Assembly (NCBI GenBank): GCA_021775005.1
Contig: JAJFIK010000050.1
Location: 1-64,000, forward strand
Length of the DNA: 64,000 bases
Source: Rhodospirillales bacterium
GTDB taxonomy: Bacteria; Pseudomonadota; Alphaproteobacteria; JAJFIK01
Reading direction: 5' to 3'
Below the pieces are notes generated by a model that was not told the DNA's origin, ran no database searches, and saw nothing but the letters and a program-made list of their open reading frames with translations. Made by a program: the position numbers and the translations under genes. Below, piece after piece: positions 5,585-29,774 of this stretch. Position 1 is the first letter of the stretch, and each line of letters begins with the position of its first letter.

Positions 5585-7597
5585 ATGACCGACTCCATGA
5601 CAGCCGAGGCCGCCAGCGCCGCCACCCCAACCGATTCTGCTTCTCCACGGGAGCTGGCGAACGCGATTCGCGTGCTTTCCATGGACGCTGTGGAAGCTGC
5701 CAATTGTGGCCATCCTGGCATGCCCATGGGCATGGCGGATGTGGCGACGGTGCTATATTCGCGCTTTTTGAAATTTGATCCGACCCAGCCGCAATGGCCC
5801 GACCGCGACCGCTTTGTGCTCTCTGCTGGTCACGGCTCGATGCTGCTTTATGCGCTGCTGCATCTGACTGGTTACAAAGACATGACCATGGATCAGATCA
5901 GAAATTTCCGGCAGCTCGGCGCGATCACCGCAGGTCACCCTGAATTCGGTCACGCCACGGGCATTGAAACGACCACCGGCCCGCTGGGCCAAGGCTTTGG
6001 CAATGCCGTGGGCATGGCCATTGCCGAGCGTCATTTAAACGCCCGCTTCGGCGATGATCTTGTGGATCATTACACTTATACCGTTGTCGGCGATGGTTGC
6101 TTGATGGAAGGCATCAGTCAGGAAGCCTTGACGCTGGCGGGGCATCTTAAACTCAACAAGTTGATCGTCTTGTTTGACGACAACAACATCACCATCGACG
6201 GGCCGGTGTCGCTGAGCGACTCAACGAACCAACTGGAACGCTTCAAGGCCAGCGGTTGGGACGTCATTGCCATTGACGGCCATGACCATGACGCGATCGC
6301 AGGCGCCATTGCCGCTGCACGGATTAGCGAAAAGCCATCGCTCATCGCCTGTCGCACAACCATCGGCTATGGCGCACCAAACAAAGGCGGCACCTCTGCC
6401 ACGCACGGTGCGGCATTGGGCGCCGACGAAGTTGCCGGCACGCGCGAGGCCCTTGGCTGGACCGCAGCTCCCTTTGATATTCCCGGCCCCATCGCTGCCG
6501 CGTGGCGCGATATTGGCGCGCGTGGACATGACAACTACAAAGCATGGGCGACGCGGCATAAAGCCAGCCCACAACACAACGCTTTTGACATCGCTATCGC
6601 AGGCGGGCTTTCGTCCGCGCTTGGCGCCAAGATCAATGAGCACAAAAAGGCGCTTGCTGAAGCAGCTAAACCAGTGGCGACGCGCAAGGCCTCAGGCGCA
6701 GTGCTTGATGTCATCAACGCCATCGTGCCCGAAACTATTGGCGGCTCTGCAGATCTCACCGGCTCCAACAATACCGACTGGAAGGGCGCGGTGGTGATGA
6801 ACGCCGCTGATTATGGCGGGCGCTTCGTCCACTACGGCATTCGCGAACATGGCATGGCCGCGGCCATGAACGGTATGGCGCTTCACGGCGGTATTATCCC
6901 CTATTCCGGGACGTTCTTAGTGTTCACAGATTACTGCCGCGCCTCCATTCGCCTTTCAGCGCTGATGGGCCTGCGGGTCATCTATGTCATGACCCACGAC
7001 AGCATCGGCCTGGGGGAAGACGGCCCCACCCATCAGCCTGTTGAGCATCTCGCCGCCTTGCGCGCGATCCCCAACCTTGCAGTGTTCCGGCCCGCGGATG
7101 CCGTCGAAACAGCAGAGTGCTGGGAGCTGGCGCTTGAGCGCACCGACGGGCCAAGTGTCATCGCCCTCACCCGCCAGAACTTGGCCCCGGCGCGGACCAC
7201 CCACACCGACGAAAACCTTAGTGCCAATGGGGCCTATGAGCTTGCCGCGCCAACAGGTGAAGCGGCAGTCACATTGCTCGCCACCGGTTCAGAGGTTGAA
7301 ATCGCTCTCGACGCGAAACACACGCTTGAGTCCGATGGCATTGGCACCCGGGTTATCTCGGTGCCGAGCTGGGAGCTCATCAGCAGCGACAATCCCATTT
7401 GCCGTCAGGATGGCACCGTGCGCATCGCTGTTGAAGCAGGCATTGGCATGGGTTGGGAGCGCTTTACCGGCGCGCGCGGCGGCTTTGTCGGCATGTCGAG
7501 TTTTGGGGCCAGTGCCCCGGCAAAAGATTTGTATCGCCACTTCGGTATTACGGCAGACGCCGTCGCCGCCTTGGCCAAGAAAAAACTAACCGCATAG
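5585..7597 (+). CDS. tkt: Transketolase
   Basis: The ThDP-dependent enzyme moves two-carbon ketol units between pentose-phosphate and glycolytic sugars. At 670 residues it is full length. Visible features are the N-terminal [11 protein letters not shown] (about 42-52), the thiamine-diphosphate motif GDGCLMEG with downstream [22 protein letters not shown], the central [16 protein letters not shown], and the catalytic loop [18 protein letters not shown]. The first of four carbon-metabolism genes (tkt-gap-pgk-fba) on one strand with gaps of 42, 11 and 11 bases. There is no RuBisCO or phosphoribulokinase nearby, so this is a sugar-phosphate rather than Calvin cluster as far as seen. Confidence 0.97.
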
Positions 7598-25665: not shown

Positions 25666-26445
25666 ATGTTTGATCTGGGCGACATCATTACTAATCCCTG
25701 GTTTTATGCGGCGGCGGTCCCCGGCGTCTTACTGACCGGCATATCCAAAGGCGGCTTTGCTGGCGGCATTGTGCTGATTGCTGTGCCGCTGATGGCGTTG
25801 ACGGTAAGCCCCGTGCAAGCGGCAGGCATCATGTTGCCGATCCTAATTTTGATGGACGCCATTGGGGTTTGGGCGTACCGCAAATCCTTTGACCGACGAA
25901 ATCTCATCATCATGCTCCCGGGTGCCGTTGTCGGCATAGCTATTGGCGGGCTGACGGCACATTTGGTTTCTGACGACAGTGTGCGGCTAATTATCGGTGC
26001 CATTGCGGTTGCCTTCACCCTGCATCATTGGTTGCGTGGCGGAGAAACCCGCATGGCCAACGGTACAAGCATTCCAAAAGGCGCTTTTTGGGGCGCGGTA
26101 GGCGGCTATACCAGTTTCGTCGCGCACGCTGGCTCGCCGCCCTTTCAGGTCTATATGCTGCCGCAAAAGCTCGACAAGAAACTGTTTGTGGGCACCTCGG
26201 TGATGTTCTTTGCCGTGGTCAACTGGGTCAAGCTGGTGCCCTATGCCATGCTGGACCAGCTCTCTCCGGGAAACCTGATGACGTCAGCCCTCCTGCTGCC
26301 TCTTGCCCCCATCGGCATGATGCTGGGTCTTTGGCTCCACGATATCGTGCCGGAAAAACCGTTCTATCGGATTATTTATGCGATGATATTTCTAGTTGGC
26401 CTCAAGCTCCTATGGGACGGGGCGAGCGCGCTCTTTTTTGGGTAG
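25666..26445 (+). CDS. TauE/SafE family sulfite/sulfonate-type permease
   Basis: 259 residues with eight predicted helices, the family size. The first repeat begins AAVPGVLLTGISKGGFAGGIVLIAVPLMAL. The second repeat begins near FWGAVGGYTSFVAHAGSPPFQVYMLPQKLDKKLFVGTSVMFF, the characteristic TauE/SafE half-motif. Proteins of this family export sulfite, sulfoacetate or related anions, but the substrate is not predictable. The stop codon lies one base before the left inverted repeat of the fic island, so this gene marks the island edge. Confidence 0.9.
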   Translation: MFDLGDIITNPWFYAAAVPGVLLTGISKGGFAGGIVLIAVPLMALTVSPVQAAGIMLPILILMDAIGVWAYRKSFDRRNLIIMLPGAVVGIAIGGLTAHLVSDDSVRLIIGAIAVAFTLHHWLRGGETRMANGTSIPKGAFWGAVGGYTSFVAHAGSPPFQVYMLPQKLDKKLFVGTSVMFFAVVNWVKLVPYAMLDQLSPGNLMTSALLLPLAPIGMMLGLWLHDIVPEKPFYRIIYAMIFLVGLKLLWDGASALFFG

Positions 26446-26446
26446 C

Positions 26447-26461
26447 GGGTCACTCTGAAAT
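26447..26461 (+). repeat. Left 15-bp terminal inverted repeat of the fic island
   Basis: GGGTCACTCTGAAAT, one base after the TauE/SafE stop codon. It is exactly complementary to 28045-28059. Confidence 0.75.
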
Positions 26462-26471
26462 CTCCTTGCCG

Positions 26472-26600
26472 CTCCCCAGCTTCAGGTTTGGATACTGTGA
26501 TTTTTGATACGACCGAGACCCGTGCCGTGGCCCGTATCGACATGCCATCAAGCAGGCACCGAAGGATCGTAACGCGAGTTTGGAGTGGAAGCTGTCCCAT
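26472..26600 (-). pseudogene. Truncated IS1-like transposase N-terminus
   Basis: From an ATG at 26600 the frame reads MGQLPLQTRVTILRCLLDGM, then SIRATARVSVVSKITVSK, then EAGERQ before losing resemblance about 43 codons in. The pattern LP..R..IL..L.(E/D)GMSIRAT.R..(G)VS..TV.K is the N-terminal helix-turn-helix of IS1-like transposases common in alphaproteobacteria. The catalytic DDE portion is absent. The KP-EAGE junction looks like KLLVEAGE with an internal deletion. The fragment stops about 10 bases from the left inverted repeat. Identification is from memory of the family pattern. Confidence 0.6.
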
Positions 26601-26655
26601 GCATCATATGTAGTTTACAACTGTTTAAATATCAGTTATTATCTTGCATAGATCA

Positions 26656-26661
26656 TATAAT
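26656..26661 (+). promoter_or_regulatory. Candidate -10 box upstream of fic
   Basis: An exact TATAAT lies in an A/T-rich stretch about 40 bases before the fic ATG; the -35 region (CAGTTA at 17 bases) is poor. A different base composition from the host genes is evident here. Confidence 0.3.
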
Positions 26662-26697
26662 TATTGATATTTGTCAGTTGCAAAAAGGATATATTGC

Positions 26698-27819
26698 ATG
26701 TTGTTCACCCACCGTTCCCTCACCCACAGCGAGCGGCGCGTCATAGATCGGGTTTCTGAGATACGGCATAAGATGCGTTTCCAGGTGGTGCAAAACCCCC
26801 GTCGATGGACTGGGCTTTTGGCCCGCATGACACGGGCTAAAGCGCTTCGAGCCTCCAATAGCATTGAGGACATTAATGTTAGCGCTGAGGACGCGCTTGC
26901 CGTTGTTGACAATGAAGAAACCTCCGAGGCCGACAAAGCCACATACCAAGCCGTGCAGGGCTATCATGCCGCGATGGATTATGTATTGCAGAGATGCCGG
27001 TCCGAACATTTCAAGTTTAGCGAAGATATGATCCTTGCGATGCACTTCATGATTTCTCAACACGATTTGCAATCAAACCCCGGAAATTATCGCCCGGGCT
27101 GGGTTGGTGTGCACAATACAAAGACTGGTGATATTGTTCACGAAGGTGTTGATCGCGACAAGCTTGAGCCTCTTATGGTGGAGCTAGTGTCTTACTTGAA
27201 CGATCCAGATGTTGAATCGACCGTTTTAAAGGGTGCGATGGCTCATTTAAACCTCACACTCCTCCACCCGTTTTCCGATGGAAACGGCAGAACAGCGCGC
27301 TGTCTACAAACGGCAGTATTGGCAGACAAAGGTATTATGGCACCGGTATTTTCAAGCATCGAAGAATATATCGGACGAAACCAACAAGAATATTACGATG
27401 CCCTTGCGCAGACTGGCGGCGGCGGGTGGAACCCGCAACGTGACTGCTCCCAATGGGTTCGATTTTGTATCACTGGTCATTATAGACAAGCGCAAACATT
27501 AGTTCGCCGCCTCGACGAGTTCGAGCGTCTGTACGGAGAACTCTACGAAATTGTGCGGAAGGCGGGGCTACAAGAGAGAACAGCGCTCGCATTACTCCAA
27601 GCCGCCATTGGAGGGAGGGTTCGAAATTCGTCTTATAGGATTAGCGCTGATGTGTCGAACAACCTTGCAAGCCGCGACCTAAAATCTTTAGTCGATACGC
27701 GTCTTTTGATTGGAGAAGGAGAAAGACGCGGCAGATACTATGTTCCAAGCAAAGAGATACTGGAAATTAGAAAAAAAACACGGTTACCCAAATCTATTGA
27801 TGATCCGTTTGAAGATTAG
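26698..27819 (+). CDS. Fic-domain protein (predicted AMP-transferase)
   Basis: 373 residues. The catalytic motif HPFSDGNGRTAR at 190-201 is intact, so AMP transfer (or another nucleotidyl transfer) to a target hydroxyl is expected. An N-terminal SNSIED at 53-58 resembles the inhibitory (S/T)xxxE(G/N) helix of class II Fic proteins, with Asp where Gly/Asn is usual. NYRPGWVGVHN is the flap, and a C-terminal winged helix covers about 285-360 (ERTALALLQAAIG, VRNSSYRISADVSNN, DTRLLIGEGERRGRYYVP), as in Fic/DOC regulators. The ATG at 26698 with AAAAAGGA is preferred over TTG at 26671. It lies inside the inverted-repeat island; no antitoxin gene is adjacent. Confidence 0.92.
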   Translation: MLFTHRSLTHSERRVIDRVSEIRHKMRFQVVQNPRRWTGLLARMTRAKALRASNSIEDINVSAEDALAVVDNEETSEADKATYQAVQGYHAAMDYVLQRCRSEHFKFSEDMILAMHFMISQHDLQSNPGNYRPGWVGVHNTKTGDIVHEGVDRDKLEPLMVELVSYLNDPDVESTVLKGAMAHLNLTLLHPFSDGNGRTARCLQTAVLADKGIMAPVFSSIEEYIGRNQQEYYDALAQTGGGGWNPQRDCSQWVRFCITGHYRQAQTLVRRLDEFERLYGELYEIVRKAGLQERTALALLQAAIGGRVRNSSYRISADVSNNLASRDLKSLVDTRLLIGEGERRGRYYVPSKEILEIRKKTRLPKSIDDPFED

Positions 27820-28044
27820 TCTTTGCTGGGAGGCGGCGCAGAGCAGCCATCGTTGCTTGATTTGTAAGGGGCGCCTGGTCTCCGGGGTTTGCTCTCAACA
27901 CCATCTTTCGTTCATCATCTACTCGACCGCCGGCCACAGCATCAACAACGCGCTTAGCTAGCTGGTTGGTATATCTAGCCCGCTTGGCTGTTTTGGCTAT
28001 CATAGCCACAATTTGGCATTGCGGGGGGCTAGTTCCATAGCCAA

Positions 28045-28059
28045 ATTTCAGAGTGACCC
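28045..28059 (-). repeat. Right 15-bp terminal inverted repeat of the fic island
   Basis: ATTTCAGAGTGACCC on the plus strand, the exact reverse complement of 26447-26461. On the inner side, AAATTTGGCTATG and AAATTGTGGCTATG (reading the minus strand) form a degenerate direct repeat. Confidence 0.75.
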
Positions 28060-28148
28060 ACCGCTCTTTTTTGTTTCCACTTGAGCCCGAGACCCGCCGC
28101 CGCTAGCTTGTGCGCCGCTCGCCATATGGCGCTTTCAGGAGATATTTG

Positions 28149-29774
28149 ATGGGCAATCCTTACCTCAGCGATCTGGACAAAAACGAAGCGAACTATCAAC
28201 CGTTGACGCCGATCACCTATCTTGAGCGCTCCGCCACCACCTATCCGACCCGGCCCGCTGTTGTTCATGGGGAGATGACCCGCTCCTATGCCGAGCTTTA
28301 TGCCCGCTGTCGCCAATTGGGCTCGGCCCTCACGGCGCGCGGCATTGGCTCAGGCGACACGGTGGCGATTGTGTGCGCAAACATTCCGCCCATGATCGAA
28401 GCGCACTACGGCGTGCCCATGACCCGCGCTGTGCTCAACACCATCAACTATCGCCTTTCAGCAAAAGAGATCGCCTTCATTCTTGATCACGGTGAAGCAA
28501 AGGTCTTGATGGTCGACAAAGAGTTTTCCGCTCTTTGCAAAGAAGCTCTGAGAGAGTGTGACGCCAAGCCGATTGTGATCGACATTGACGATCCTGAATA
28601 TGATGGTCCGGGAGAGCGCATCGGCGAGATTGAGTACGAAGATTTTATCGCCAGCGGCGATGCCGACTTCGAATGGCTTTTACCTGAAGATGAGTGGGAC
28701 GCCATTTCCCTCAACTACACCTCCGGCACGACGGGGAACCCCAAGGGCGTGGTTTATCACAATCGCGGCGCGTATCTGCTGGCCATGGGCAATGTGGTCA
28801 CCGCATCCATGGGTCGCCATCCGGTCTATCTTTGGACCGTGCCCATGTTTCACTGCAACGGGTGGTGCTTCACCTGGTCGATCTCTATACAAACCGGCAC
28901 TCACGTGTGTTTGCGCCGCGTTGAGTCCGGCACCATGTTCGATGCGATCTCCAAGTACGGCGTGACGCACCTTTGCGGCGCGCCGGTGGTGATGGGTATG
29001 CTCATCAATGCGTCTGACGAGGATCGCAAACCGCTCGATCACATGGTGGAATTTTTTACTGCCGCCGCGCCGCCGCCTGCCGCAGTGCTCGCACAAATGA
29101 AAACTGCCGGTTTTAATGTCACCCACCTTTATGGGCTGACCGAAACCTATGGCCCGGCTGTGGTCAATGCTTGGCATGACGAATGGGACGATCTGCCCGA
29201 AGATGAGCAAGCCGCCGTGAAAGCCCGTCAGGGGGTGCGCTATGCGGTGCTTGAAGATCTCTCTGTGCGCGACCCCGAAACCATGGCCGAGGTGCCCAAA
29301 GACGGCGAAACCATGGGTGAGGTTATGTTTCGGGGCAACGTGGTGATGAAGGGCTATCTCAAGAATCCAAACGCATCTCGCGAAGCTTTTGAGGGCGGGT
29401 GGTTCCGTTCCGGTGATCTTGGTGTTTGGCACCCGGACAATTACATCCAACTTAAAGATCGCTCAAAGGACATCATCATCTCAGGGGGCGAAAACATCTC
29501 GTCCATCGAAGTTGAAGATGCGCTGTATAAACACGCCGCCATCAGTGCCTGCGGGGTGGTCGGCAAATCGGATGAAAAATGGGGCGAAACGCCGGTGGCG
29601 TTCATCGAGACCAAGCCCGGCGAAACCCTGACCCCCGAGGACGTCATCAGCCATTGCCGGGAGTATTTGGCCGGCTACAAAGTGCCACGTCTGATTGTGT
29701 TCACGGAGCTACCGAAAACATCCACCGGCAAGATACAAAAATTCAAATTGAGAGACAAAGCAAACGCGCTTTAG
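28149..29774 (+). CDS. AMP-forming acyl-CoA synthetase
   Basis: 541 residues of the adenylate-forming ligase superfamily, activating a carboxylic acid to its CoA thioester via an acyl-AMP. The ATP loop TSGTTGNPKG lies at 191-200. Next come HCNGWCFTW, the adenine motif LYGLTETYGP, the hinge WFRSGDLGVWHPDNYIQLKDRSKDIIISGGENIS, and the catalytic Lys in TSTGKIQKFKLR. It is most like the medium-chain/DmdB-type ligases with PMFHCNGW; the substrate cannot be fixed. AGGAG lies seven bases before ATG 28149. It starts 89 bases after the fic island, and its stop overlaps the small DUF465 gene on the other strand. Confidence 0.94.
   Translation: MGNPYLSDLDKNEANYQPLTPITYLERSATTYPTRPAVVHGEMTRSYAELYARCRQLGSALTARGIGSGDTVAIVCANIPPMIEAHYGVPMTRAVLNTINYRLSAKEIAFILDHGEAKVLMVDKEFSALCKEALRECDAKPIVIDIDDPEYDGPGERIGEIEYEDFIASGDADFEWLLPEDEWDAISLNYTSGTTGNPKGVVYHNRGAYLLAMGNVVTASMGRHPVYLWTVPMFHCNGWCFTWSISIQTGTHVCLRRVESGTMFDAISKYGVTHLCGAPVVMGMLINASDEDRKPLDHMVEFFTAAAPPPAAVLAQMKTAGFNVTHLYGLTETYGPAVVNAWHDEWDDLPEDEQAAVKARQGVRYAVLEDLSVRDPETMAEVPKDGETMGEVMFRGNVVMKGYLKNPNASREAFEGGWFRSGDLGVWHPDNYIQLKDRSKDIIISGGENISSIEVEDALYKHAAISACGVVGKSDEKWGETPVAFIETKPGETLTPEDVISHCREYLAGYKVPRLIVFTELPKTSTGKIQKFKLRDKANAL

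Follow-up and report, generated by a model that had tools for sequence, protein, structure and literature searches.

Positions 26441 to 28065 of the 64,000-nucleotide contig stretch analyzed here (the window) very probably represent a single inserted "transporter" element of the IS1 family, which carries a fic gene and is now decayed. A unit with the ends listed in Table 1 sits in the 3′ end of tauE, where 8 bp have been duplicated, and its transposase is reduced to the first 38 codons. As a fossil, the feature looks ordinary; it opens onto a family of elements that looks new in its cargo. In the scheme we propose, the ancestral IS1-family unit would have had terminal inverted repeats, with a transposase near one end, a small accessory open reading frame (ORF) near the other, and the cargo between them. 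IS1-type DDE transposases bind both terminal repeats and insert at staggered cuts, which gives rise to short duplications; such an enzyme would once have recognized both ends and mobilized the unit together with its fic gene. A deletion within the transposase gene would have left a nonautonomous cassette comparable to a mobile insertion cassette, which could now move only if the cell acquired a cognate transposase. The deletion may have preceded the insertion, in which case movement would have occurred in trans, or may have followed it.

Table 1. Features of the fic-bearing element and its neighbors in the window
Feature	Coordinates	Strand	Remarks
tauE/safE, 259 aa	25666..26445	+	Last codons replaced by element sequence
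Left target-site duplication CTTTTTTG	26433..26440	.	Identical to 28066-28073; 8 bp, as in 21 of 25 relatives
Whole element, 1,625 bp	26441..28065	.	Extended inverted ends, abutting 8-bp duplication, and ends of 25 relatives
Left terminal inverted repeat GGTAGCGGGTCACTCTGAAAT	26441..26461	+	One change from GGTAGTGGGTCACTCTGAAAT of L040
IS1-family transposase remnant, codons 1-38	26487..26600	-	79% identical to 297-aa transposase of L040 (G220)
AT-rich divergent intergenic region, transposase start to fic start	26601..26697	.	From the sequence
fic, 373 aa, SoFic-type	26698..27819	+	Pfam Fic, 1e-11; PADLOC SoFic, 2e-51; PDB SoFic, 3e-13
Small accessory ORF remnant	27794..28009	-	49% identity over residues 1-40 of L040 small ORF
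Right terminal inverted repeat	28045..28065	-	Three transitions in outermost bases relative to family consensus (alignment)
Right target-site duplication CTTTTTTG	28066..28073	.	Copy of 26433-26440
Acyl-CoA synthetase (AMP-binding), downstream neighbor	28149..29774	+	Pfam AMP-binding, 1.9e-75

The first-pass annotation had described perfect 15-bp inverted repeats around the region, and these are exact, with the 15-mer GGGTCACTCTGAAAT at 26447-26461 and its reverse complement at 28045-28059. Just two exact copies exist in the 2.85-Mb draft genome, both at the element ends, and among 384 other alphaproteobacterial genomes the 15-mer recurs once, in G220, again at an element end; the scatter over many unrelated places that the same annotation had named as evidence against an element was thus not found. 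Taken alone, the repeat is within chance: the window has one perfect 15-bp inverted repeat with arms 0.5 to 2.5 kb apart, and 13 of 60 Markov-shuffled windows have at least one. Its significance comes instead from the identical 8-mers that abut the extended ends (chance of about 4 × 10−5 for a random pair of positions) and from the presence of the same ends on true relatives. The tips of the window element are mutated (GGTAGCG and AGCGGTG), the relatives having GGTAGTG or close variants. The region lies between copies of a 12-bp direct repeat, CGCTCTTTTTTG, and the target-duplication match runs 4 bp (CGCT) beyond the 8 bp; we attribute the extra match here to chance similarity between the mutated right tip and the left flank. 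An 11- or 12-bp duplication, with 3 bp deleted from the right repeat, was considered and is less likely, because duplications in the relatives are 8 bp long and the right end can be aligned without a gap if it has three transitions; the right boundary could shift by 3 bp with an 11-bp duplication, the tip being off consensus at its three outermost bases. The G+C content is 49% in the element and 56% in the flanks. A plasmid DNA similarity search with both element ends gave no match.

The present stop codon of TauE (TAG, 26443-26445) is part of the terminal GGTAGCG of the element, and the insertion is therefore inside tauE; the earlier placement of the repeat one base after this stop is correct as to position, but not in setting the insertion beside the gene. 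When the flanks are joined without the element, a continuous TauE of 261 aa is obtained that ends in GASALFFVST and a stop. In G001, a congener, the acyl-CoA synthetase gene is linked to tauE without the element or fic, with 590 bp of other sequence between them; as an empty-site comparison, this is from a congener and not from the same species, with a TauE that is 74% identical and a different spacer of about 0.6 kb. The two genes are direct neighbors, about 100 to 160 bp apart, in the diverged genomes G117 and G124, again without the element or fic, and the second congener, G002, has no TauE match. The linkage in G001, G117, and G124 indicates that the element is a lineage-specific insertion, and none of the three has fic between the two genes, the arrangement that had been put forward as telling against an insertion.

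The reported 5′ fragment of an IS1-like transposase was recovered as codons 1 to 38. Past codon 38, the sequence jumps to the left inverted repeat; i.e., nearly the whole gene appears to have been lost by internal deletion. This fragment alone is too short to pass the Pfam and NCBIfam IS1 models. The small-ORF remnant is recognizable over its N-terminal ~40 residues only, the rest being diverged or deleted. Searches of its own genome and of the two congeners found no other transposase copy able to move the element, and since none was found in its genome, the element is probably stranded.

The evidence that this arrangement belongs to a family comes from 25 two-ended elements of 2.4 to 4.2 kb in other Alphaproteobacteria, which combine similar ends with an IS1 transposase of ~295 aa, cargo, and an ORF of ~75 aa near the other end. 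Exact 8-bp duplications flank 21 of the 25, and 7 of 8 bp match in L074 and L084. In the remaining two (L071:5961-9187 and L115:1776-4900), the ends are well conserved and the target duplication is absent, suggesting later recombination between copies. A typical example is L040 (G220), in which an end is followed by a 297-aa transposase (minus strand), an HTH-ImmA/IrrE-like gene and a second gene (plus strand), an 82-aa small ORF (minus strand), and the other end; the transposase is open, and the target-site duplication is ACAGGAGA. An intact relative with the same ends and a full transposase, which the first-pass annotation had sought, is thus at hand in L040, and an element from G551 carries fic itself, with one in-frame stop in its transposase. 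The suggestion that the window holds an insertion sequence (IS) with cargo that lost most of its transposase accordingly stands, given the 8-bp duplication and relatives with same-type ends and open transposases.

Searches with the transposase recovered matches in 30 of 289 genomes, and the small ORF, which pointed to further elements, is present in 34 of 371. Among full-length transposases of at least 55% identity (n = 18), 15 belong to elements that have both the paired ends and the small ORF; of the three exceptions, two are close to a contig end. The layout is common to four named plasmids, from Mesorhizobium loti, Hoeflea, Acidiphilium, and Methylocapsa. The tail of the small ORF product is basic and KGG-like, and the product is annotated as "histone H1" in M. 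loti, which suggests that it binds DNA. A P63C-domain cargo protein (L087:6250-7335) has an N-terminal KGGKARA...RW motif resembling the family small ORF, suggesting that the two may share a DNA-binding tail. An unannotated 34% relative of the transposase is encoded by Brevundimonas phage vB_BpoS-Gurke (ON529850.1, 174788-175666).

Cargo matches to anti-phage defense models (PADLOC) were recovered in at least 13 of the 25 elements, a lower bound in that the scan covered part of the cargo ORFs, and they comprise PD-Lambda-2, RosmerTA, SoFic, and PDC-S13. PD-Lambda-2_B was matched in L040, L071, L074, L127, L114, and L115 (1e-39 to 1e-49), RmrA of RosmerTA in L078, L089, L090, L125, and L112 (3e-61 to 3e-191) with RmrT in L089 and L112, SoFic in L135, the window, G202, and G012, and PDC-S13 in L085. 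Pfam matches in the cargo include a HigB-like toxin (L071), SocA/Panacea (L083), Bro-N (L085), P63C (L087), and GNAT (L076). As a control, the longest suitable flanking ORF at 20 of these loci gave no defense-model match at 1e-5; the comparison at the same loci (cargo, 10 of 20; flanks, 0 of 20; Fisher P of ~0.0004) is a small one, with one ORF per locus and elements that are not a random sample. For L072, L073, L113, and others, the cargo shows no obvious link to defense. In L072:5413-9425 and L073:3201-6432, it is lipoprotein-like with a related C-terminal motif (FYG...VGGT..R) and is not defense-like. Related cargo proteins of 250 to 310 aa with the motif P(A/F)I.L..A(I/L)(E/D)R occur in L082, L083, and L129; Pfam gave no match for those of L082 and L083 and PADLOC none for those of L082 and L129, and they are a candidate uncharacterized module. 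Just outside or at the edge of the element are additional defense or toxin-antitoxin genes, namely a Shedu nuclease gene on the Methylocapsa plasmid (L115:455-1633) and a RES/MbcA-Xre pair on the Acidiphilium plasmid (L113:4883-5721).

The window fic gene is intact, as had been stated, with a frame open from the ATG at 26698 to the stop at 27819, a purine-rich AAAAAGGA upstream, and a catalytic motif, HPFSDGNGRTAR, that fits HxFx(D/E)GNGRxxR. Its inhibitory-helix-like motif is SNSIED, set against the N-terminal inhibitory pattern (S/T)xxxE(G/N), and the other IS-borne fics have SNSIEG or SNTIEG. The combination of a catalytic and an inhibitory-helix-like motif in one chain is shared with the standalone SoFIC AMPylase, which is treated as a defense family (PMC10924106); the window protein differs in its low identity to the solved SoFic and in having SNSIED in place of SNSIEG. 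Viral contigs contained no relative of the window Fic. From homology, the chances are roughly even that the cargo Fic is a self-regulated AMP-transferase that acts as a one-gene defense or toxin-antitoxin-like module. The inhibitory helix of Fic itself would then replace a separate antitoxin, making a single-chain toxin with built-in restraint, and such a module would benefit the host or stabilize the element, which would explain why fic is intact while the transposase decays. It is also quite possible that the protein is a general regulatory AMPylase, beneficial in some other way and neither a defense nor a stability module: the PADLOC SoFic model is a homology model, the NCBIfam SoFic score of 70.7 bits is far below the 550-bit equivalog cutoff, and Fic enzymes have varied targets; against this, about half of the sister elements carry defense or toxin-antitoxin-like cargo.

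That Fic is not a standard IS cargo, as the first-pass annotation held, needs softening, as three further alphaproteobacterial elements (G551, G202, and G012) carry fic in the same cargo position. The element of G551 (L135:3178-5566) has GGTAGTGGGTCAGTTTGAAAT at both sides, identical over the 21-bp consensus, a target-site duplication of GGGCTCCG, a full-length transposase with a single in-frame stop, a truncated small ORF, and a fic 45% identical to that of the window. In G202 (L101), a decayed transposase is followed by fic, a truncated small ORF, and the right end, and in G012 (L105), fic lies beside a transposase with an internal deletion and a single diverged end. Across the four fic-bearing elements, including that of the window, the transposase is broken in 4 of 4 and fic is open in 4 of 4. 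The four IS-borne fics do not form one clade in a phylogenetic tree; a single origin was rejected, since well-supported branches of the tree require no fewer than three label changes, which implies either several captures of fic or loss of the element in other branches. Such repeated capture or decay would also fit a later entry of fic, by a separate insertion or by recombination, into an IS1 copy that was resident at tauE beforehand; we nevertheless consider this improbable, since fic occupies the standard cargo position (transposase-fic-small ORF) at unrelated sites in other genomes and G551 holds the whole unit inside one duplication. Chance bracketing of fic by two independent IS remnants, whether solo ends or a composite transposon, would fit a transposase that is only a fragment and ends that differ in decay, but it is highly improbable, as the transposase lies next to the left end and the small ORF next to the right end, these being the two ends of single elements (L040 and L135) and not a "composite of two IS ends" as had been offered, and one 8-bp duplication spans the whole unit.

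Against the preferred reading of a single decayed insertion, it can be said that IS1-type transfer of fic is not general, since the closest relatives of the window gene (67%, 64%, and 60% in G185, L026, and G363, respectively) are in no recognizable element. No recognizable IS1 pieces lie beside the other fic loci L026, L102-L104, and L106-L108. The fic gene of G061 lies between two copies of a 179-bp direct repeat that are 91% identical (L106:4124-4302 and 5599-5777), a signature of mobility or duplication of another kind. Preceding fic at L105:1321-1400, L101:2500-2576, and L026:930-989 are AT-rich palindromes related to TTGACTTA and TAAGTCAA; in L105 and L101 they adjoin the divergent start of the transposase, and a shared operator is possible.

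IS1-family terminal repeats have the form GGnnnTG, and the target duplications are of 8 to 9 bp. The relatives show both the end form and, in 21 of 25 as in the window, an 8-bp duplication. The L040 transposase scores 33.7 bits with Pfam DDE_Tnp_IS1 (cutoff, 24.1); for the NCBIfam IS1 equivalog, the family score is 65.7 bits, short of the 100-bit cutoff. We place the family with IS1 on account of its transposase (Pfam DDE_Tnp_IS1), end form, and duplication length, all shared with the single-ORF branch of IS1, and the transposase is predicted to be a divergent IS1 branch. It departs from IS1 in size, at 2.4 to 4.2 kb against about 0.8 to 1.2 kb, and in having cargo plus a fixed small ORF. One IS1 subgroup in ISfinder (ISMhu11) includes elements of up to several kilobases, and a group related to this family may already be catalogued there.

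ISs with passenger genes are termed transporter ISs, as for IS1595 in the statement for which PMC3129680 cites Siguier et al. 2009, and transposase-less cassettes with IS ends are termed mobile insertion cassettes (MICs), both kinds being known (PMC3129680, PMC2266710). The relatives, with an open transposase and paired ends, likewise have one transposase and, between the IS ends, passenger genes that have no part in transposition; the window copy has lost its transposase. Unlike the IS1595 transporter ISs, their transposase scores IS1 (5e-18) over IS1595 (9e-6), a small accessory ORF is recurrent, and the cargo is skewed to defense and toxin-antitoxin modules. The window element has MIC structure, with IS ends and a passenger gene and its own functional transposase absent, as in MIC231 and its kin; it differs in that MIC231 belongs to the IS231 group of the IS4 family and in that no helper transposase was found in the window genome. 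Tn7-like transposons, which carry defense cargo (PMC8649781), are comparable as transposons that spread systems against mobile elements, but they are larger and multiprotein, whereas this family has one transposase and usually one to three cargo genes. Searches of the open-access literature on IS1-family passenger, toxin-antitoxin, defense, or Fic cargo turned up no IS1-type family that combines this small ORF with this cargo. Passenger-carrying ISs are known, and an IS1-type family with this cargo appears to be new.

About 1 in 10 of the sampled genomes carries the family transposase or the small ORF. We consider it an evenly balanced proposal that a widespread alphaproteobacterial branch of IS1-type elements is a dedicated compact vehicle for small defense and toxin-antitoxin modules, in which one transposase is combined with a slot for exchangeable cargo and with a conserved small accessory protein of KGG type that may belong to the transposition machinery or serve to control the cargo. 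In the window, the element explains both the odd fic gene and the altered end of tauE. Defense systems move on prophages, plasmids, integrative conjugative elements, and Tn7-like transposons; if IS1-type elements with a single transposase routinely carry them too, a minimal vehicle has been overlooked. The cargo slot would then be a place to look for undescribed defense genes, and annotations reading "IS1 family transposase" and "hypothetical proteins" would hide complete mobile units.
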